Assembly: GCF_002944405.1 (NCBI RefSeq)
Contig: NZ_CP024307.1
Span: forward strand, 3,515,001-3,579,000
Source: Sinorhizobium fredii
GTDB lineage: Bacteria; Pseudomonadota; Alphaproteobacteria; Rhizobiales; Rhizobiaceae
Reading direction: 5' to 3'
DNA: 64,000 nucleotides
Part shown: positions 5,996 to 64,000 of the stretch, piece after piece
Position numbering within the stretch: the first letter of the stretch is position 1
Layout of the letters: each line of letters opens with the position of its first letter
Program-made: the position numbers and the translations under genes
Notes under the pieces: generated by a model
The model's input: only the letters and a program-made list of their open reading frames with translations
Databases searched by the model: none
Told to the model about the DNA's origin: nothing

Positions 5996-7960
5996 ATGCC
6001 GACGACCGGAATTCCACCCCTCGGCGTGATGCACACGCCTGGCGGGACACGTTTTGCCGTCTGGTCGCACAATGCCGCCCGTATCGAGCTCTGCCTGTTC
6101 GACAAGCAGGGCGAAAAGGAATTGCGCCGTCTGCCGATGGCGCGCGATGGCGATGTGCACAGCATCACTCTTCCCGACGTGCCGCCTGGCAGTCGCTATG
6201 GCCTACGCGCCGAGGGCGTCTACTCACCCGATCACGGATTGTGGTTCGATCCATCGAAGCTGCTGGTCGATCCCTATGCTATTGAACTCGACCGCCCCTT
6301 TCTCCACGATCCGCGCCTGACCGTCTTCGGCGAGGAGACCGCCGACCTCGTGCCGAAAGCGATCGTGACCGACGTCAAGGCACTCAACCCGAAGCCGCCA
6401 TTGTTCCAGCCTGGCGGGCTGATCTACGAGGTCGCGGTCAAGCCGTTCACTATCCTTCATCCGGAGATTTCGGAAAAGAAGCGCGGCACGCTGGCCGCCC
6501 TCGCCGAGCCGGTCGTCATCGAGCACCTGCACCGCCTCGGCGTCTCCGCCGTCGAACTGATGCCGATCGTCGCCTGGATTGACGAGCGGCACCTGCCGCC
6601 GCTCGGGCTTCACAACGGCTGGGGCTACAACCCGATCGCGCCGATGGCGCTCGATCCGCGCCTGGTTCCAGGCGGCATCAAGGAACTGCGCAAAACCGTC
6701 GAAGCCCTGCACAAGGCCGGCATCGGCGTCATCCTCGATCTCGTCTTCAATCATTCTGGCGAAAGCGACCGCTACGGCGCCACGCTTTCGATGCGCGGGC
6801 TCGACAATCTTACCTATTATCGCCATGTCATCGACCAGCCGGGAGAACTTATCAACGACACCGGCTGCGGCAATACCATCGCTTGCGACCACCCGATGGT
6901 TCAAAGGCTGATCCTCGATAGCCTGCGTCACTTCGTTCTTGCCGCCGGCGTCGACGGATTCCGCTTCGACCTTGCCTCGATCCTCGGCCGGGATATGAGC
7001 GGCTTTCATCGCGACGCAGCACTCTTCTCGGCAATCGCAGCCGATCCCCTGCTGTCGGACCGCGTACTCGTCGCCGAGCCCTGGGACACCGGTCCCGGCG
7101 GCTATCAGCTCGGCAATTTCCCTGAAGGCTTCCTCGAATGGAACGATCGGGCGCGCGACGATATCCGCCGCTATTGGCGCGGCGACCGACATGCTGTGGG
7201 CGCGCTCGCCACAGCGCTTGCCGGCTCCTCCGACACGTTTTCGCGCTGGGGCGAGACGAGAACACGCACCGTCAATTTCATTGCCGCCCATGACGGCTTC
7301 ACGCTTTTCGACCTCGTCTCCTACGCGCGCAAGCACAACGAGGCGAATGGCGAAGGCAATCGCGACGGGCACAACGAGAACTACGCCTGGAACAACGGTG
7401 CCGAAGGCCCGACCGACGATCCGGAGGTCGTGACGGCCCGGCGGAGCGATGCCATGGCGCTCCTCGGCAGCCTCTTCGCCTCGCGCGGAACGATCATGCT
7501 GGCGGCAGGCGACGAAGGCGGCCGCAGCCAGCACGGCAACAACAACGCCTATGCGCAGGACAACGCGATCACCTGGCTCGACTGGGAAAAGCTCGACCAA
7601 AAACTCGTCGACCACACGGCCGCGCTCTCCGCCATGCGCCGCCGCTTCGGCATCTTCGCCGAGACGTCATTCTTCACCGGACAAGGCGACGTCGCCTGGC
7701 TTCGCCTCGACGGTCACCCGATGACGGTCGAGGATTGGGAACATCCGGCAACCGACAACCTGGCCATGGTTTTGGCGACCGAGGATCGGCAGCAGCAGCG
7801 CTCGACCCGGCTCGCCGTCGTCATCAACCGCAGCCATGCGCCCCACCCCTTCAGACCGCCCACCAGCCTCGTCGGCGAATGGCGCGATGCCCTCTCGGGT
7901 GCTAGGCTGCCGGCCTTCGCTCCGGCGCGCTCGGTCAGCTTCTTCGTCGAGGTTTTCTAA
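5996..7960 (+). CDS. glgX: glycogen debranching enzyme GlgX
   Basis: 654 aa, normal length. Cuts alpha-1,6 branches from phosphorylase-limited glycogen. An N-terminal CBM48-like domain (residues about 5-90) is followed by a GH13 barrel with VILDLVFNHSGES (region I), GVDGFRFDLASIL (region II with nucleophile Asp), RVLVAEPWDTG (region III, general acid Glu) and FIAAHDGFTLFDLVSY (region IV), the last being typical of the GlgX/TreX group. The frame is open upstream into the repeat, but ATG 5996 is preceded by AAAGGACG and gives the family N terminus. Confidence 0.96.
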   Translation: MPTTGIPPLGVMHTPGGTRFAVWSHNAARIELCLFDKQGEKELRRLPMARDGDVHSITLPDVPPGSRYGLRAEGVYSPDHGLWFDPSKLLVDPYAIELDRPFLHDPRLTVFGEETADLVPKAIVTDVKALNPKPPLFQPGGLIYEVAVKPFTILHPEISEKKRGTLAALAEPVVIEHLHRLGVSAVELMPIVAWIDERHLPPLGLHNGWGYNPIAPMALDPRLVPGGIKELRKTVEALHKAGIGVILDLVFNHSGESDRYGATLSMRGLDNLTYYRHVIDQPGELINDTGCGNTIACDHPMVQRLILDSLRHFVLAAGVDGFRFDLASILGRDMSGFHRDAALFSAIAADPLLSDRVLVAEPWDTGPGGYQLGNFPEGFLEWNDRARDDIRRYWRGDRHAVGALATALAGSSDTFSRWGETRTRTVNFIAAHDGFTLFDLVSYARKHNEANGEGNRDGHNENYAWNNGAEGPTDDPEVVTARRSDAMALLGSLFASRGTIMLAAGDEGGRSQHGNNNAYAQDNAITWLDWEKLDQKLVDHTAALSAMRRRFGIFAETSFFTGQGDVAWLRLDGHPMTVEDWEHPATDNLAMVLATEDRQQQRSTRLAVVINRSHAPHPFRPPTSLVGEWRDALSGARLPAFAPARSVSFFVEVF

Positions 7961-8037
7961 AGTTTTACCGCCACTTGCTAGAAATTGCCCGGCCGGCCTA
8001 TAGATCGATAGGGGGGCCGCTGGTTCAGGACAAACAA

Positions 8038-8526
8038 ATGCCGCAAGACATTTCACTTTCCGACGTCAAGAATCTGATCGGCAAAGAAATCGGCGTGTCC
8101 GACTGGATCACCGTTTCCCAAAAGACAATCGACAATTTTGCCGAAGCGACGGGCGACTTCCAGTTCATTCACACCGATCCCGAGCGCGCGGCCGCCGAGA
8201 CGCCCTTCGGCGGCACGATCGCGCACGGCTTCCTGTCGCTCTCGCTGCTCTCGGCGATGAACTACAATTGCCTGCCGAAGATCCGCGAGCAGACGATGGG
8301 CATCAACTACGGCTTCGACAAGGTGCGCTTCATGGCGCCGGTCAAGAGCGGCGCGCGGGTGCGCGGCCGCTTCAGCATGGCAGACGCCCGCTTCCGCGGC
8401 GCCGGCATGCTGATGATCACCTATGACGCGACCGTGGAAATCGAGGGCGAGCGCAAGCCGGCGCTGACGGCGGTGTGGCAGACGATCATCCAGTTCGACC
8501 CGAAGGACCGGCCGGCGGATGTCTGA
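8038..8526 (+). CDS. MaoC-like (hot-dog fold) dehydratase
   Basis: 162 aa. The hydratase-2 signature is clear: NFAEATGDFQFIHTDPERAA (catalytic Asp/His pair) followed by TPFGGTIAHGFLSLSLLSAM. Such proteins act as (R)-specific enoyl-CoA hydratases or related dehydratases; the substrate cannot be read from sequence. ATG 8038 follows a weak purine stretch (AGGACAAACAA) and matches the family start MPQDISLSDVKNLIGKE; the frame is open about 20 codons further upstream. It sits alone between glgX and the sox operon, which points toward it. Confidence 0.9.
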   Translation: MPQDISLSDVKNLIGKEIGVSDWITVSQKTIDNFAEATGDFQFIHTDPERAAAETPFGGTIAHGFLSLSLLSAMNYNCLPKIREQTMGINYGFDKVRFMAPVKSGARVRGRFSMADARFRGAGMLMITYDATVEIEGERKPALTAVWQTIIQFDPKDRPADV

Positions 8527-57103: not shown

Positions 57104-57643
57104 ATGCACGGTGGACAGCACCATCATGACGACCACCACCATCACGATCACGACCATGAGCATGGTCACGATCATCACCACCACGGCCATCGTCATGCGG
57201 GGCCCGGCCACAATCGGCAGCGCGGCACCGCGCAATGGCAGGTGCCGCACCGCCCGGAAAGTGAGGACATTTCGCCGCCGCGCGAACGCGATCTCGATCT
57301 CGTGGAGGCAAGTTTCGTAGAGAACTTCGCCCGTGCGAGCGATCCGACGAGCTTCCTCAGGCTTGCGGACATCCCCTTCGTTGGGCTCGACGCTTCGGGG
57401 AAACTCCTGCACCTGCTGCGCGTCGAGGCCGCGGATCGCACCGATGTCGGCGCGGTCGTGCCGCTCCTCGGCGGCAATGCCGTGCGCTACGACGTGCTGC
57501 CGGCGCGCATGACCTCGCGCCGCCAAGACCTCAGCTTCCTCTATCACGACGGCCAGGCGGTCGTTCGGTTGCACTTCACAGAGGCGCGCAAACTCAAAGA
57601 CCGGACCGACGCCTCGCATTTCGACATCGAACCGACCGAGTGA
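57104..57643 (+). CDS. protein with extremely His-rich N terminus, candidate nickel chaperone
   Basis: 179 aa. Nineteen of the first 36 residues are His, mixed with Asp/Glu (stretches HHHDDHHHHDHDHEHGHDHH), a metal-binding tail like that of nickel stores such as HypB or UreE N/C termini. The rest (from about residue 55, SPPRERDLDLVEASFVENFA to the end) matches no domain I know. It sits 10 nt after the ureohydrolase gene and 24 nt before hupE. Function inferred: nickel storage or delivery to the guanidinase. It is not HypA or HypB. Confidence 0.85.
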   Translation: MHGGQHHHDDHHHHDHDHEHGHDHHHHGHRHAGPGHNRQRGTAQWQVPHRPESEDISPPRERDLDLVEASFVENFARASDPTSFLRLADIPFVGLDASGKLLHLLRVEAADRTDVGAVVPLLGGNAVRYDVLPARMTSRRQDLSFLYHDGQAVVRLHFTEARKLKDRTDASHFDIEPTE

Positions 57644-57667
57644 ATTTCGCTTTAGAAAGGCAAGGCC

Positions 57668-58252
57668 ATGAACTTCAGGATTCTCACCGCGCTCGCCGCC
57701 CTTCTCGCCACTCTGCCCTGCCAGGCTTTGGCTCATACCGGCGATCATTTCTACGGTGTCGAAAGCGGCTTCCTCCACCCATTTTCGGGTCTTGACCACC
57801 TGCTCGCCATGGTCGCCGTCGGGATGATTGCCGCACGGCTCGGCGGCTCAGCGCTCTGGCGGCTGCCGCTCGCCTTCGTCTCGGCCATGGTTTCGGGCGC
57901 GGTGTATGCCCTGACCGGCGGTACGGTCCCGCTCGTCGAAACGGCGATCATCACCTCCGTCGTCCTCTTGGGCGCGGCGTTGATCGCCAACGCGAACATG
58001 CCTGTTGCGCTCGCTGTCACCGGCGCCGCCACCTTCGGCTTTTTCCATGGCTTTGCCCATGGGACAGAGGGTCCGGCCGCTGCGCCGCTCGGCCATATCC
58101 TCGGCTTCGCCGGCGGCACGGTGATCCTCCACATCACCGGCATCGCCGCCTGCCATGCACTTGCCCGACACGGCACCGGCCCCATGCCGGCGCTTCGCAT
58201 CATCGGCACGGGGATCATAGGCGCCGGTATTGGCTTGGCCTTCATTGCGTGA
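57668..58252 (+). CDS. hupE: HupE/UreJ-family nickel permease
   Basis: 194 aa. A signal-like first helix is followed by AHTGDHFYGVESGFLHPFSG and LDHLLAMVAVGMIAARLGGS, the HupE/UreJ nickel-binding signature (HPxxGxDH form), and later FGFFHGFAHGTEGPAAAPLG. About six membrane helices. Takes up Ni or Co for hydrogenase or urease in other bacteria; no such genes are near, so here it probably supplies the guanidinase. Confidence 0.92.
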   Translation: MNFRILTALAALLATLPCQALAHTGDHFYGVESGFLHPFSGLDHLLAMVAVGMIAARLGGSALWRLPLAFVSAMVSGAVYALTGGTVPLVETAIITSVVLLGAALIANANMPVALAVTGAATFGFFHGFAHGTEGPAAAPLGHILGFAGGTVILHITGIAACHALARHGTGPMPALRIIGTGIIGAGIGLAFIA

Positions 58253-58274
58253 CGCTTCGCGTGAGGAGATGGAT

Positions 58275-58409
58275 ATGCGTGCCATTACCAATATCTTGAT
58301 TTACTGGCGAAAGCTCGTCTTCGCGGGCATGGCTTTCCGCTTTGCTGGTCTTAAGGCCTTGGACCGCGCCTTGCTTCGGCGCACATCCAACACGCGGAAG
58401 GAGCCTTGA
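58275..58409 (+). CDS. 44-residue small protein, unknown
   Basis: A short frame from ATG 58275 (or ATG 58269, two codons earlier) to TGA 58407-58409, 22 nt after hupE, with GTGAGGAG just upstream. The sequence is basic with a hydrophobic first half (MRAITNILIYWRKLVFAGMA) and a charged tail (RRTSNTRKEP). It could be a small membrane-associated protein of the guanidine operon. No family recognised. Confidence 0.5.
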   Translation: MRAITNILIYWRKLVFAGMAFRFAGLKALDRALLRRTSNTRKEP

Positions 58410-58571
58410 AAGCGCGGTGCGTAAACGTCACGCAGAGCTGGGCACGGATTACTTTCAGGGCGGGGGGCACACTCTCTGCATCGCCGTGAAGCCTTATCCG
58501 TTCGTCGATTACCCTTTCGCAAGTTCATTCAGGCGCTATGCTGTAAGCCAATATACCAAGCGCGAGGCCTT

Positions 58572-58892
58572 ATGACGGAGCGACATCAGAGCCACTCCCG
58601 GGAGCGGATGACCATCCTTGGCGATCTTGACGCCGTCTCCTTCGTCCCCTGGATCTGGCGCCATGCCGCCAAGCTCGGGCTCTCGCAGTCCATCTCCCAT
58701 ACCAGTCCCAACCGGATCGAACTCGAGGTCGCCGGACCGGTGGATCTGATCGACATGATGGAGATCGGATGTTCGCTCGGGCCCTTCGACGTCCGGGTCG
58801 AGACGATACACCGCACACCGGTTGACGGCGGTGGCGACCAGGGCCGCGACCGGACTCTTGACCGTCCACAGCTATATCTGCCGCTTATTTAA
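58572..58892 (+). CDS. acylphosphatase-like small protein
   Basis: 106 aa; a second ATG at 58608 would give 94 aa. The core IELEVAGPVDLIDMMEIGCS followed by LGPFDVRVETIHRTPVD has the length and pattern of acylphosphatase-like proteins, but the catalytic Arg/Asn signature of true acylphosphatase is not evident. Located between the nickel genes and the Rieske module, on the same strand; role unknown. Confidence 0.55.
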   Translation: MTERHQSHSRERMTILGDLDAVSFVPWIWRHAAKLGLSQSISHTSPNRIELEVAGPVDLIDMMEIGCSLGPFDVRVETIHRTPVDGGGDQGRDRTLDRPQLYLPLI

Positions 58893-59010
58893 TCAAAGTT
58901 GCAAATGCAGAAAACTTATGCAAGCGTGGCAACACTGAGCCGCAAGTCATCCCGTCGGCTTCGGGTTCTTCGCTAGGCTAAGGTGTTGGTATTATTTGGA
59001 AAGTATATTC

Positions 59011-59664
59011 ATGCTGTCCGGCAAGACGGGCTCTTGGACACCAGTTGCCCTTTCCGCGGATTTGCCAGCGGGAACCGTGATGCCCGCACGGACACCAGCC
59101 GGGTCGATCGCCCTCTGGCGAAGTCAGTCGGGCCGCGCCGCCGCCTCGGCGGACCGGTGTCCCCATCGCGGCATGCGCCTTTCCCATGGCTTCGTGCGTG
59201 GCGAGGCCCTTTCCTGCATCTATCACGGTTGGAGTTACGCCCGGACCGGAAACTGCTTGCGTATCCCGGCCCATCCGGGTCTCACGCCGCCGGAAACAAT
59301 ACGTGTAGAAATGCATGAGGTTGAAGAGTCCGGCGGGGTCATCTGGGTTGCCGTGGGAGTACCCACCGCTCAGCCCCCGCGGCTTGAAGGCGTCATTCCC
59401 CTGCGCTCACTGACAGCACATGCCGGTGTTGCGGCGGTCGAGGCCGCGGCCGGCGCAAAGGCGGGTGCCGACGGCCTTGTCTGGCAAGCGCAGGATACGC
59501 AGAAAATCCGGCTGCTGCTCGTCCCGCAGGGAGACGAACAGACGCTGATCCATGTTCTGTTGGACAATAAAAGCACTCCGCCCCAGCGCATCGCTGCGTC
59601 ACGCGCCGTTGAGACCTTGCGGCGGATAGCCGAAGATCTTCAGACGAAAGGGACCGCGCCATAA
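59011..59664 (+). CDS. stand-alone Rieske 2Fe-2S protein
   Basis: 217 aa from ATG 59011 (GGAAAG 7 nt upstream). Residues about 10-115 form a Rieske domain with both cluster motifs: ADRCPHRGMRLSHG (Cys-x-His) and LSCIYHGWSYARTGNC (Cys-x-x-His). The C-terminal 100 residues (KIRLLLVPQGDEQTLIHVLL, then helical) show no catalytic iron site and no reductase domain. It probably passes electrons to the catalytic subunit at 59676, which lacks its own cluster; a reductase is not seen in the window. Confidence 0.9.
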   Translation: MLSGKTGSWTPVALSADLPAGTVMPARTPAGSIALWRSQSGRAAASADRCPHRGMRLSHGFVRGEALSCIYHGWSYARTGNCLRIPAHPGLTPPETIRVEMHEVEESGGVIWVAVGVPTAQPPRLEGVIPLRSLTAHAGVAAVEAAAGAKAGADGLVWQAQDTQKIRLLLVPQGDEQTLIHVLLDNKSTPPQRIAASRAVETLRRIAEDLQTKGTAP

Positions 59665-59675
59665 TCCAGGACACG

Positions 59676-60503
59676 ATGATCGACGAGTGGTATCCGGTCG
59701 GCCTTTTCAGCCAGCTCGACGTGAACGGACGCAGGACCGCCCTGATGGGAGAGCCCATCGAGGTGGTACGAGCCGAGGGCCACGCGAGGGTGACGTCCGG
59801 CGATGGGCGGACTCTTCCCGTTTGCGTCCGCTACGGCCATGTCTGGTCCTCTCTCGGCAAGCCTCGGAAGGATCTTTTCGCGATTCCCGAGGCTGACCAG
59901 CCCGGCCGCCGGCTCGTCGATGTCGGCGTGGTCCGCGTGCGCTGCTCGCCGCTGCGGGCGGTCGAGAACTTCCTCGACATCGCGCATTTCCCCTTTGTGC
60001 ATACCGACATCCTGGGCGCAGAGCCGCACACGGAAGTGCAGGACTACAAGGTCGAAATCCGGCAGCACGAGGATGAGGTCTGGGCAACACAGGTGAAATT
60101 CTACCAGCCGCAGGCTGCCAAATCGGCAAGCGGCGGCATCACGACGGAATACATGTACCGCGTGCCGGCACCGACCTGCTCCGTTCTCTACAAGACCTGT
60201 CCGGTCCGCCCCGGGGAATGGGACGTCATCACCCTCTTCGTCCAGCCGCTCGCCGAAGACCTGTGCGACGTCTGGCCGTGGATGGCGCTCTTCGACGATG
60301 TCACACCGATGACCGACCTCATCCACTTCCAGCAGACGATCTTCCTGCAGGACCGGTCGATCCTCGAAAACCAGATCCCCCGGCTCCTGCCGCTCGATCC
60401 CGGAATGGAAATCCCCACGAGAGCCGACCTTACCTCGGTCGCCTACAGGCGCTGGCTGAAACGCCACAACTATACCTACGGCGCACAGCTGGTGGCGCAA
60501 TGA
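59676..60503 (+). CDS. Rieske oxygenase catalytic subunit without a cluster-binding segment
   Basis: 275 aa. The mononuclear iron site is present: VENFLDIAHFPFVHTDILG (Asn98, Asp101, His104, His109) and FLQDRSILENQIPRLLPLD with the carboxylate ligand, as in VanA-, PobA- and NdmA-like oxygenases. The N terminus WYPVGLFSQLDVNGRRTALM starts like a Rieske domain and resumes with VRYGHVWSSLGKP, but the part in between that holds both CxH and CxxH pairs is missing. This matches NdmC, the N7-demethylase of caffeine breakdown, which needs an external Rieske domain and the GST-like NdmE. Confidence 0.88.
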   Translation: MIDEWYPVGLFSQLDVNGRRTALMGEPIEVVRAEGHARVTSGDGRTLPVCVRYGHVWSSLGKPRKDLFAIPEADQPGRRLVDVGVVRVRCSPLRAVENFLDIAHFPFVHTDILGAEPHTEVQDYKVEIRQHEDEVWATQVKFYQPQAAKSASGGITTEYMYRVPAPTCSVLYKTCPVRPGEWDVITLFVQPLAEDLCDVWPWMALFDDVTPMTDLIHFQQTIFLQDRSILENQIPRLLPLDPGMEIPTRADLTSVAYRRWLKRHNYTYGAQLVAQ

Positions 60504-61159
60504 AGCTCTACGATTACGTCCTTTCACCGAGCTGCTACAAGGTGCGCCTGATGGCGGCACTGACCGGCGTGAAGCTGGAAATCAGAGCGGTCGACTTTCA
60601 TCCCGGCGCCGAGCATCGCGGCACCGAGCTCATGTCGCTCAATCCGGCGGGATCCATCCCGATCCTCGAGGAGGGTGACCTGATCCTGACTGAATCCGCC
60701 GCCATGCTCGCCTATCTTGCCGCCAAGGCCGCGCCGGAATGGCTCGGCAGCGGCGCACCGGAGGAAGTGGCGCGTATCCAGCAGTGGCTTTCCTTCGCAC
60801 ACCGGCTGACCGCCAGCCTCGGCGGCGCGCGCCTTCACCAAATGCTCCTGCGGTCGGGCGACATCGGCGCGCTCCAGGCGCAGGGCATAGCGGCGCTTCG
60901 CGAGCTGGAGGCGGGGCTGGTCGAACAGCGCCTGCGCGGCATGCGGTTCCTCGCCTCCGACCGGCCGACGGTTGCCGATATCGCATGCTTCCCCTACGTG
61001 GTGCTCGCGCCGGACGGCGGCATCCCGCTCGACCCCTACCCCGCTATAAGGCTATGGTCCCGCGCGATCCGCGGCCTCGACAACTTCATCGAGATGCCCG
61101 GAATCCATCGGCTACACGAGCTGAAGCCCGACCCCCTCGTCGAACCGGACGAGGTGTGA
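60500..61159 (+). CDS. GST-like protein, probable scaffold of the split oxygenase
   Basis: 219 aa. Thioredoxin-fold N domain (MKLYDYVLSPSCYKVRLMAA, SLNPAGSIPILEEGDLILTE with the cis-Pro and SNAIL-like TESAAM) and an all-helical C domain (RPTVADIACFPYVVLAPDGG). It overlaps the catalytic subunit gene by 4 nt. NdmE of the Pseudomonas caffeine pathway is also GST-like and is needed structurally for NdmC, which is the reason to propose a scaffold role over a glutathione transferase. Confidence 0.88.
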   Translation: MKLYDYVLSPSCYKVRLMAALTGVKLEIRAVDFHPGAEHRGTELMSLNPAGSIPILEEGDLILTESAAMLAYLAAKAAPEWLGSGAPEEVARIQQWLSFAHRLTASLGGARLHQMLLRSGDIGALQAQGIAALRELEAGLVEQRLRGMRFLASDRPTVADIACFPYVVLAPDGGIPLDPYPAIRLWSRAIRGLDNFIEMPGIHRLHELKPDPLVEPDEV

Positions 61160-61160
61160 C

Positions 61161-62540
61161 ATGGCCGGTTACCTTCTCAAAAACTGCGCGGCCGTCATCG
61201 TCGACGAGGGCAAGGGTCCGAGCGTCCACCGGAACGTGGATCTCTTGACGAATGGCCCCGCGATAGAGGCAATCGGCGAAAACCTTCACAAAGGACCGCT
61301 ACCGGCCGGGACGATCACGCAGGACGCCGCCGGCTGGTTCGTTTATCCGGGGCTTGTCAACACCCACCACCACTTCTTCCAGTGTTTCGTCCGCAACCGT
61401 GCGGATCTCGATTGGACGAAGCTGTCGGTCATCGAATGGCTCGACCGCATCTATCCGATCTTTTCGCGGCTCAACGAGGACTGTTTCTACCACGCCTCGG
61501 TTACGGCGATGGCCGAGATGATCAAGCACGGCTGCACCACGGCCTTCGACCACCAGTACTGCTTCCCGCGGCACGCCGGCAAACGGCTGATCGACCGTCA
61601 GTTCGAGGCTGCCGACCTTCTGGGCATGCGTTTCCATGCCGGACGTGGCGGCAACACGCTGCCGAAATCCGAAGGCTCAACGATCCCCGATGCCATGCTG
61701 GAAACGACGGACGAGTTCATCGCCGATTGCGCGCGGCTGATCGACACCTACCAGGATGCCAGCCCCTTCAGCATGCGGCAGCTCGTGGTTGCGCCCTGCC
61801 AGCCCGTCAATTGCTACCGCGAGACCTTCGTGGAGTCGGTCGCACTGGCGCGCGATCGCGGCGTGCAGATGCACACGCATGTGGGCGAAGGCGAGAGCCC
61901 GGTCGTTGAGGCCCGGCACGGCATGCGGACGGTCGATTACTGCGCGGAACTCGGATTTGCCGGTCCCGACACCTTCTATGCCCATTGCTGGGAACTCACC
62001 CAGGACGAGTTGCGGACGATGGCGGCGAGCGGCACCGGCGTCTCGCACTGCCCGGAGCCGGTCTATCTGGTCGGCGCCGAGATTACCGACATTCCGGCGA
62101 TGTCGGCCCTTGGTCTGCGCGTGGGTCTCGGCTGCGACGGCGCGGCCTCGAACGACAACTCGAACCTGATGCACTGCGTGCACTCCGCCTACATGCTGCA
62201 GTGCCTGACGGCATCGACGCGCGCGCATCCCGTGCCGCCCCCGGCGGATTTCCTCGGCTATGCGACGACCGGCGGCGCCGCCCTCCTCGGCCGCCGCGAC
62301 ATCGGCCGCCTTGCTCCTGGCATGGCCGCCGATCTTTTTGCGATCGACACGCGGCGCATGGACTACGTCGGCACGCGGCATGATCCGCTGAGCCTGATTG
62401 CCAAGGTCGGCATCGGCATGCCCACTGACATGACAATGATCAACGGCCGCATCGTCTGGGCGAAGGGCGAATTCGTCGGGCTCGACGAGCCGCGGCTGTT
62501 CGCCGAGGCCGAGGCCGCTCTCGCGACGGTGGAATTCTAG
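61161..62540 (+). CDS. amidohydrolase, probable 8-oxoguanine deaminase
   Basis: 459 aa, subtype III amidohydrolase like guanine deaminase/TrzN/8-oxoguanine deaminase. Metal ligands: HxH in YPGLVNTHHHFFQCFVRNRA, His in MHTHVGEGESPVVEARHGMR, His in AHCWELTQDEL and the Asp in GLGCDGAASNDNSNLMH. NTHHHFFQ and DWTKLSVIEWLDRIYPIF are as I remember 8-oxoguanine deaminases, which convert 8-oxoguanine to urate. It starts 1 nt after the GST gene. Atrazine-type or other N-heterocycle deamination cannot be ruled out. Confidence 0.82.
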   Translation: MAGYLLKNCAAVIVDEGKGPSVHRNVDLLTNGPAIEAIGENLHKGPLPAGTITQDAAGWFVYPGLVNTHHHFFQCFVRNRADLDWTKLSVIEWLDRIYPIFSRLNEDCFYHASVTAMAEMIKHGCTTAFDHQYCFPRHAGKRLIDRQFEAADLLGMRFHAGRGGNTLPKSEGSTIPDAMLETTDEFIADCARLIDTYQDASPFSMRQLVVAPCQPVNCYRETFVESVALARDRGVQMHTHVGEGESPVVEARHGMRTVDYCAELGFAGPDTFYAHCWELTQDELRTMAASGTGVSHCPEPVYLVGAEITDIPAMSALGLRVGLGCDGAASNDNSNLMHCVHSAYMLQCLTASTRAHPVPPPADFLGYATTGGAALLGRRDIGRLAPGMAADLFAIDTRRMDYVGTRHDPLSLIAKVGIGMPTDMTMINGRIVWAKGEFVGLDEPRLFAEAEAALATVEF

Positions 62541-62562
62541 AATTCAAAACAGGGGAACTGAC

Positions 62563-63663
62563 ATGCTGAACAATGTAACTCGCAGAACACTGATGAAGGG
62601 CGTTGCCGCCGCCGGTCTCACAGGCATGCTTGGCGGTCGGGCCGCCATGGCCGCCGAAGAGCCGCTCGGAATCACCCTCGTGATCCCCTCGCCGGTCGGC
62701 GACGTCGGCTGGGGTCATGCTCTTGCCGCGGGCCTCGAGCCGGTCAAGGCCGCCTACGGAGACAAGGTGAAGGTCACCGTCATCGAGAACATCCCGGAAG
62801 GTCCCGATGCCGACCGTATCATGAACAAGACGGTCTCCGACGGGAACAACTTCCTGATCGCCGGCTCCTTCGGCTACCAGAACGGCGCCCTGCAGATCGC
62901 TCGCCGCAATCCGGCCGTCACCGTGCTGCACGCGTCCGGCTTCCAGGTGGCTCCGAACTTCTCGCCCTTCGCGGCCAAGTATTTTCAGGGGACCTACCTG
63001 CTCGGCATGGCTGCCGCTGCGCTTTCCAAGACCGGCAAGCTGGGCTCGGTCTCCGCCTTCGCCATCCCGGAGCTGATCACCTCCATCAACGCCTTCACGC
63101 TCGGCGCGCAAGCCGTGAACCCCGATGTCGAGGTGTCGGTCGTATGGGTGAACTCGTGGTTCGATCCGGCCAAGGAGCAGGAGGCCGCCAAGGCTTTGAT
63201 GGCGCAGAAATGCGACGTGATCTTCTCCAACGCACAGGACACGCCGTCCGTTATCTCGGCCTGCGAGGAGGCCGGCGTCTATGCGTTCAATCTCAACTCG
63301 TCGATGAAGAAATACGCGCCCAAGACCTATCTCGGCTGCGTGGCGACGGATTGGTCGCCCTTCTTTAAGGCCTCGGTCGACGCCCATGTCGCCGGCACGT
63401 TCAAGGGCGCCAACGCCTTCCTCGGCGTATCCGACGCGGTCGTTGAGGTCGTCGACTGGAACCCGGATATCCCGGCCGACGTCATGACCAAGATCAAGGC
63501 GATCGAGGCGAAGATTGCCGATGCCAGCTTCTCACCCTTTATCGGGCCGATCACCAAGGCCGCCGGCAACCAAGGGGTGGCCGCCGGTGCAACGCTCACG
63601 GATGGCGAAATCGTCGCGATGGACTGGCACGTCAAGGGCGTCGCCACCCCTCTGCCAAAGTGA
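62563..63663 (+). CDS. BMP-family ABC transporter substrate-binding protein 2
   Basis: 366 aa. Twin-arginine-like signal (NNVTRRTLMKGVAAAGLTGM) and BMP fold (LVIPSPVGDVGWGHALAAGL, IAGSFGYQNGALQIARRNPA). Distinct from the binding protein at 44334. It is downstream of the deaminase gene and directly ahead of an ATPase gene, so a purine or nucleoside such as 8-oxoguanine is the likely ligand (inference). Confidence 0.9.
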   Translation: MLNNVTRRTLMKGVAAAGLTGMLGGRAAMAAEEPLGITLVIPSPVGDVGWGHALAAGLEPVKAAYGDKVKVTVIENIPEGPDADRIMNKTVSDGNNFLIAGSFGYQNGALQIARRNPAVTVLHASGFQVAPNFSPFAAKYFQGTYLLGMAAAALSKTGKLGSVSAFAIPELITSINAFTLGAQAVNPDVEVSVVWVNSWFDPAKEQEAAKALMAQKCDVIFSNAQDTPSVISACEEAGVYAFNLNSSMKKYAPKTYLGCVATDWSPFFKASVDAHVAGTFKGANAFLGVSDAVVEVVDWNPDIPADVMTKIKAIEAKIADASFSPFIGPITKAAGNQGVAAGATLTDGEIVAMDWHVKGVATPLPK

Positions 63664-63666
63664 GCC

Positions 63667-64000
63667 ATGACCGCGCCCTTGCTGTCGCTCCGCGGCATTT
63701 CCAAAAGCTACGGACAGATTAGAGCCAACCAGGATATCGATCTGGATGTGGCCCCGCAGTCGGTCCACGCGATCCTCGGCGAGAACGGGGCGGGGAAATC
63801 GACGCTGATGAAGCTGATCTCCGGCGTCGAGCAGCCAGACGGCGGTACCGTCGTCTGGGCCGGAGAGCCTTTGAGCCTTGCCTCCCCTGCGGAGGCGAGG
63901 CGCCAGGGGATCGGCATGGTCTTCCAGCACTTCTCGCTCTTCGAGACCCTGACCGTCGTGGAGAATATCCGGCTGGTCGTGCCGGGCCGGAAAGCCGATC
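63667..64000 (+). CDS. BMP-type ABC transporter ATPase (3' end outside window)
   Basis: First 111 codons only. Walker [21 protein letters not shown] and the Q-loop region RQGIGMVFQHFSLFETLTVV. Starts 3 nt after the binding-protein stop. The permease genes presumably follow outside the window. Confidence 0.93.
   Translation, partial: MTAPLLSLRGISKSYGQIRANQDIDLDVAPQSVHAILGENGAGKSTLMKLISGVEQPDGGTVVWAGEPLSLASPAEARRQGIGMVFQHFSLFETLTVVENIRLVVPGRKAD

Follow-up and report, generated by a model that had tools for sequence, protein, structure and literature searches.

A stretch of 64,000 nucleotides of the Sinorhizobium fredii genome (the window; positions 3,515,001 to 3,579,000 of contig NZ_CP024307.1, assembly GCF_002944405.1) carries adjacent genes for a free Rieske protein (RSK), a catalytic chain without a Rieske cluster (CAT), a GST-like partner (GST) and an amidohydrolase (AMH). 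We read RSK and CAT, with a probability of about 0.6, as an NdmC-like Rieske oxygenase made of two chains, encoded in an operon that serves to break down methylated guanine bases. The usual picture of a Rieske oxygenase is a single chain with two metal centres, and this proteobacterial family appears to divide the two centres between two degenerate copies of one enzyme.

Two metal centres on two chains

In CAT the N-terminal strand region with WYPV and the RYGHVW strand are retained, and the CxH/CxxH cluster motifs are absent; a preliminary description of this DNA had reported N-terminal strands and YGHVW without both cluster motifs, and sequence and Pfam agree with it. The 2-His-1-carboxylate site of Rieske oxygenases is present in CAT (iron ligands H104, H109 and D226; bridging aspartate D101), and the cluster ligands, which a Rieske oxygenase carries in the same chain, sit on RSK. 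RSK has both cluster motifs and lacks the mononuclear-iron motif.

The order RSK-CAT-GST on the same strand was observed in all 80 fetched genome loci, which, being the best 80 among 192 confirmed hits, are close relatives (L and G numbers below are our own for loci and genomes). AMH is present in 79 of them, and so is the binding protein of BMP type encoded after it (one locus, L039, stops short of that gene). The locus without AMH, L080 from Neorhizobium alkalisoli, keeps RSK-CAT-GST and the BMP gene with no AMH between. Over the 80 loci CAT is better conserved than RSK (88-95% vs 63-90% identity). Homologues with Rieske motifs in the catalytic chain, which the preliminary description had named as evidence that would speak against a genuine split, were looked for: the CxH..CxxH motif occurs in 0 of 240 catalytic homologues among the matches listed (120 from each of two database searches) and in 0 of 83 split chains of a wider, more diverse set, and N98, D101, H104, H109 and D226 are kept in all 83. 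Together with the 80 conserved loci, these counts rule out a local deletion or a pseudogene. Among the loci examined, CAT homologues of at least 43% identity are all split, and ten at 32-42% (L132-L140, L164) are unsplit enzymes that carry the motif; loci L093-L144 and the contexts of many genomes were read as 3.8-kb pieces, and calls of gene context are limited by locus length. A CAT homologue was found at E<=1e-20 in 66 of 397 genomes of the order, and one was found in 24 of 398 genomes of the phylum, the two samples overlapping. The split is real and widespread in soil rhizobia.

We then compared models of the two chains (AlphaFold2, AF2; both monomers) with known structures, using VIA-align 2 for CAT. 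Both models align with whole Rieske oxygenases, RSK over 214 of its 217 residues, and for both the best structural and PDB sequence matches are SxtT and GxtA, which differ in having both centres in one chain and saxitoxin-type substrates. Residues 128-215 of the RSK model form a second folded part. This second part and the full-length alignment to oxygenases rule out a plain Rieske ferredoxin (a single domain of about 100 residues). The separate gene had been described as supplying a complete Rieske domain, which holds for the two motifs and falls short for the rest, the model being that of a whole oxygenase. Judged from the model, RSK resembles a full oxygenase that has been reduced in size and whose catalytic domain is rudimentary and without iron, and since its model, like that of CAT, aligns with whole enzymes, the two chains appear to have degenerated from one ancestral enzyme in complementary ways.

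The nearest full-length relatives found (38-42% identity) are unsplit oxygenases (L132-L138, L164) that likewise stand beside BMP-type binding proteins and, unlike the window genes, have both centres on one chain; an ATP-binding cassette (ABC) system and a guanine-deaminase-like gene are also near that of L164. Another divided enzyme is the chlorophyllide a oxygenase (CAO) of Micromonas, for which Kunugi reportedly found in 2013 the Rieske centre on one chain and the iron on the other. That CAO consists of two polypeptide chains (stated in the part of PMC9615114 used here), so NdmCDE, which the preliminary description had taken to be the one described split, is not alone. The likeness to the window system is one of architecture as described; CAO is algal, has a chlorophyllide substrate, and a GST partner goes unmentioned in the same part of PMC9615114. 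No report of a free-Rieske split was found in open-access PMC listings (titles and abstract openings) and a few passages, which yielded NdmCDE and caffeine literature; a 2025 review mentions NdmD four times and NdmC not at all in the portion available to us (PMC12445004).

Free and reductase-fused Rieske chains

According to passages of PMC4408171, NdmC, NdmD and NdmE form the N7-demethylase of Pseudomonas putida CBB5, NdmC has no Rieske cluster yet is active within the NdmCDE complex, and ndmCDE homologues had already been noted in Sinorhizobium and Mesorhizobium. The kinship with NdmC and NdmE proposed earlier holds: CAT is 44% identical to authentic NdmC (P0256, M1EY73_PSEPU) over CAT residues 1-270, with 5 gap positions in 275 columns, and GST matches at 38-41% (tblastn) the GSTs that accompany NdmD fusions in L085-L089 and L091. 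The window system thus resembles NdmCDE in its cluster-less catalytic chain, its GST-like partner and a Rieske module on another chain. Unlike NdmCDE, in which that module is fused to the NADH reductase, the window has it as a free protein, as the preliminary description had recognized; there is no reductase in the operon, and an NdmH-type hydrolase and a BMP importer are encoded alongside. RSK is homologous to the N-terminal half of the NdmD-type proteins beside NdmC-like genes (31% to a Klebsiella NdmD-type protein, RSK residues 9-184). Plasmids of Klebsiella, Pseudomonas, Sinorhizobium and Mesorhizobium carry CAT relatives of 43-46% identity in the order CAT, Rieske-reductase of 585-588 residues, GST, which is that of ndmC-ndmD-ndmE. 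Three loci, L131, L148 and L163, contain RSK, CAT, GST and, as a fourth piece, a separate reductase of NdmD type.

A tree with NdmC had been suggested earlier as a check, and we built one of CAT from 93 of 104 rows (11 dropped: the fragments L131_0, L147_11 and L147_21 and rows of the overlapping loci L122 and L142-L144). The 46 rows of the free type, with RSK beside CAT (34) or more distant or elsewhere in the genome (12), form one clade with four rows of unassigned context (L090 among them; support 93/84); without the basal long branch of L163 the support is 99/94. NdmC is placed among the fused rows, outside this clade. In a tree of the Rieske domain, which has few columns and leaves out the RSK/NdmD rows of L122 and L142-L144 (4 of 61), 38 free rows lie on one side of a branch with support 95/87, and 18 of 19 fused rows fall in a clade with support 99/98. 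Judged by these trees, the wiring, free or fused, follows descent. With the two wirings in separate lineages, parts can be swapped to test what cluster position, GST partner and choice of reductase contribute.

NdmCDE, whose reaction is the N7-demethylation of 7-methylxanthine, depends on its GST-like protein for solubility and activity. In the window, GST overlaps CAT as had been described (by 4 bases) and has GST_N/GST_C domains. Positions E65 and S66, which we take to be the usual glutathione-binding pair, are each kept in only 19 of 43 rows, and the GST is also present beside NdmD; for these two reasons we dropped the idea that GST acts as a reductant via glutathione.

Regarding the supply of electrons, the window genome has two matches to NdmD-type reductases at E<=1e-15, both in other clusters, where a Rieske ferredoxin neighbours one (L215) and a GbcA-like oxygenase the other (L216). 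Because both adjoin other systems, neither was assigned as a dedicated reductase. Of 29 free-type genomes searched, 9 have no NdmD-type reductase at that threshold. Since the operon has no reductase, the matches of its own genome lie elsewhere and these 9 genomes have none, the electron donor is probably borrowed and not always of NdmD type. Such borrowing is plausible because Micromonas CAO accepts VanB, which is not its native reductase, in vitro (stated in the available part of PMC9615114).

As a side observation, the ndmCDE-like cluster on a conjugative Klebsiella pneumoniae plasmid (L085, 6731-13385) lies between insertion sequences and includes one more oxygenase, a TIM-barrel protein and a 2-oxoglutarate oxygenase.

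Methylated guanines as candidate substrates

Both NCBIfam and PDB give 8-oxoguanine deaminase as their best name for AMH; the NCBIfam score (NF006055, 365.3 bits) is under the curated cut-off of 532. A 2026 paper describes, in the part used here, N2,N2-dimethylguanine hydrolases (NdmH), lists the active site of poNdmH as Q74, W85, W93, Y98, Y133, N165, C213, Q214, N217, E243, H275, P300 and D326, and calls their physiological context still under investigation (PMC13054789). AMH has 13 of these 13 residues at identical numbers, and when the register is shifted by 1 to 8 residues at most one position matches. All 13 are kept in all 80 loci with AMH (two of which, L092 and L017, are the same strain); W85, Q214 and N217 are unmatched in the aligned 8-oxoguanine deaminase 7ww2, and more diverged amidohydrolases near other split systems have 8 or 4 of the 13. 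We therefore replaced the deaminase name by an NdmH-type one; NdmH turns N2,N2-dimethylguanine into xanthine, and AMH is a predicted hydrolase, by sequence. At E<=1e-120 (79-100% identity) AMH occurs in 12 of the 397 genomes, directly downstream of CAT in all 12, and it is present in 12 of the 14 genomes with a CAT of at least 82% identity.

The co-occurrence of an NdmH-type AMH, a BMP-type importer and an NdmC-type demethylase points to catabolism of methylated guanines with xanthine as the shared product, so that the substrate, described earlier as unknown, is not wholly open. By analogy with NdmC, CAT most likely removes the N7 methyl. Caffeine is an unlikely substrate because the only RSK-like matches in the window genome at E<=1e-10 are RSK and a 195-residue frame; at this sensitivity no NdmA/NdmB-like enzymes were seen. 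The literature searched yielded no papers joining 7-methylguanine and Rieske, and none relevant, by titles and abstract openings, on bacterial 7-methylguanine deaminase or catabolism.

In the mechanism that we propose, the ABC system would bring in the methylated purine, and AMH would hydrolyse the N2 amine, with dimethylamine or ammonia leaving. RSK and CAT would assemble with GST as scaffold, as postulated for NdmE, and the RSK cluster would take the place, adjoining D101 of CAT, that in a normal trimer belongs to the cluster of the neighbouring subunit. With electrons from an unlinked NAD(P)H reductase, CAT would oxidatively remove a ring N-methyl as formaldehyde, both enzymes leading to xanthine. 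Candidate substrates are RNA-derived 7-methylguanine or 7-methylxanthine and, for both enzymes together, 2,2,7-trimethylguanine. A bolder version, which we put forward tentatively and consider less probable than not by some way, makes the operon the physiological home of NdmH enzymes: a rhizobial pathway for RNA-derived methylguanines (7-methylguanine, and 2,2,7-trimethylguanine of snRNA caps) in which the hydrolase would take the N2 dimethylamine and the oxygenase, a complementary degeneration of a duplicated enzyme, the N7 methyl, with the free Rieske chain as an interchangeable subunit that delivers electrons and that, in other genomes, two catalytic chains of different specificity share. 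The operon offers a concrete, testable physiological setting for NdmH and suggests that methylated RNA bases serve soil bacteria as food.

Several observations weigh against reading these genes as a two-chain oxygenase for methylated guanines. On the side of the models, hhalign gives a weak result for the RSK tail (locally only 24 columns at 62%, globally 4.4%, P 0.0029), the RSK alignment fed to AF2 is shallow (65-89% identity), CAT residues 109-114 fall below a pLDDT (predicted local distance difference test) of 50, and monomers were modelled. On the side of descent, the full free clade, at 93/84, has long branches, and the fused rows do not form one clade in the CAT tree; L090, a plasmid piece of 13 kb, has CAT and neither RSK nor GST within those 13 kb, and the CAT frame of L131 matches from residue 57 or 88 only. 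The missing operon reductase and the 9 genomes without an NdmD-type match count here as well. As to the substrate, the trio can occur without AMH, which is missing in L080 and was not found in G087 or G393, and both the substrate and the N7 position are deduced from 44% identity and a neighbouring gene.

Among other explanations, the one that fares best, though we consider it unlikely, is that the same split enzyme hydroxylates a ring carbon (an HpxD-like C8 oxidation of a purine) without demethylation and AMH deaminates the 8-oxopurine. The deaminase names of AMH fit this, as do distant plasmid relatives of 25-30% identity annotated as HpxD, 'molybdenum cofactor-independent xanthine hydroxylase'. 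However, the closest characterized relative of CAT is NdmC, and AMH combines its low deaminase score with the NdmH residue set. HpxD is a single-chain oxygenase with its own Rieske cluster, which CAT lacks.

Somewhat less probable again is that RSK serves as a general electron carrier for several oxygenases, its pairing with CAT being loose and without a fixed complex. In seven free-type genomes (G099, G237, G278, G293, G334, G347 and G738) there are two split CAT genes and one RSK-grade gene (E<=1e-25), often kilobases apart, which suggests that one Rieske chain serves two catalytic chains there. Against a general carrier, the RSK model has the fold of a whole oxygenase and not that of a ferredoxin, RSK and CAT are adjacent in all 80 loci of the window operon, and RSK must dock at the catalytic site of CAT because CAT has no cluster of its own. 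That CAT is an oxygenase inactive through decay and that RSK is a Rieske protein unrelated to it would account for the lost cluster motifs but is hardly credible given the metal ligands and bridging aspartate invariant in 83 of 83 split chains, the stronger conservation of CAT than of RSK, and the activity of NdmC, with the same loss, in its complex.

Operon layout and further loci

The preliminary description had placed its three genes correctly at 59011..61159, ending at the GST stop; the unit they belong to is larger than the three genes it was taken for, with AMH, the BMP binding protein and ABC importer genes downstream (Table 1). RSK and CAT are separated by 11 bases, and GST and AMH by 1. 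Past the window end (locus L004) two permease open reading frames (ORFs) follow the ATPase.

Table 1. Features of the operon and its upstream neighbour, in window positions
Feature	Position	Strand	Basis
Acylphosphatase-like small protein, 106 aa	58572..58892	+	Pfam Acylphosphatase 21.7 bits, slightly below the 22.5 cut-off
RSK: Rieske [2Fe-2S] protein with rudimentary helix-grip-like tail, 217 aa	59011..59664	+	Pfam Rieske PF00355, 69.8 bits
CAT: NdmC-like catalytic chain without Rieske cluster, 275 aa	59676..60503	+	Pfam VanA_C PF19112 only
GST-like partner, NdmE counterpart, 219 aa	60500..61159	+	Pfam GST_N/GST_C
AMH: NdmH-type amidohydrolase, likely methylguanine aminohydrolase, 459 aa	61161..62540	+	13/13 poNdmH active-site residues
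BMP/PnrA-like ABC substrate-binding protein (purine-type importer by family)	62563..63663	+	PF02608, 139.6 bits
ABC importer ATPase, start; runs past window end	63667..64000	+	open frame, Walker A sequence by eye

The acylphosphatase-like gene lies 118 bases upstream of RSK and is present in 79 of the 80 loci (not in L049); its usual catalytic arginine motif, as we presume it to be, is by eye not preserved, and its membership in the split-oxygenase system is uncertain. Rfam at E<=1 gave no match, riboswitches included, over 57500-64000. On plasmid pRL10 of Rhizobium johnstonii 3841 the annotation gives an identical order of eight genes, with RL_RS29070-29080 as the counterparts of RSK, CAT and GST.

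A further split-oxygenase operon (L155, 7183-14609) comprises CAT, an amidohydrolase whose best NCBIfam match is 5'-deoxyadenosine deaminase (below cut-off), a pucD-like molybdenum hydroxylase (also below cut-off) and an aldehyde dehydrogenase. An operon of this type may have purines with an N6 side chain, e.g., cytokinins, as its substrates; by titles and abstract openings, nothing relevant was found in the literature that ties Rieske proteins to isopentenyladenine or cytokinin degradation. L151 and L161 resemble L155 (by similarity or by eye), and L151 has a GMC oxidoreductase near CAT. Lastly, a few kilobases downstream of the window operon, L004 contains an ORF (7174-8181) that resembles a serine recombinase by eye, with a masked stretch of N further on.
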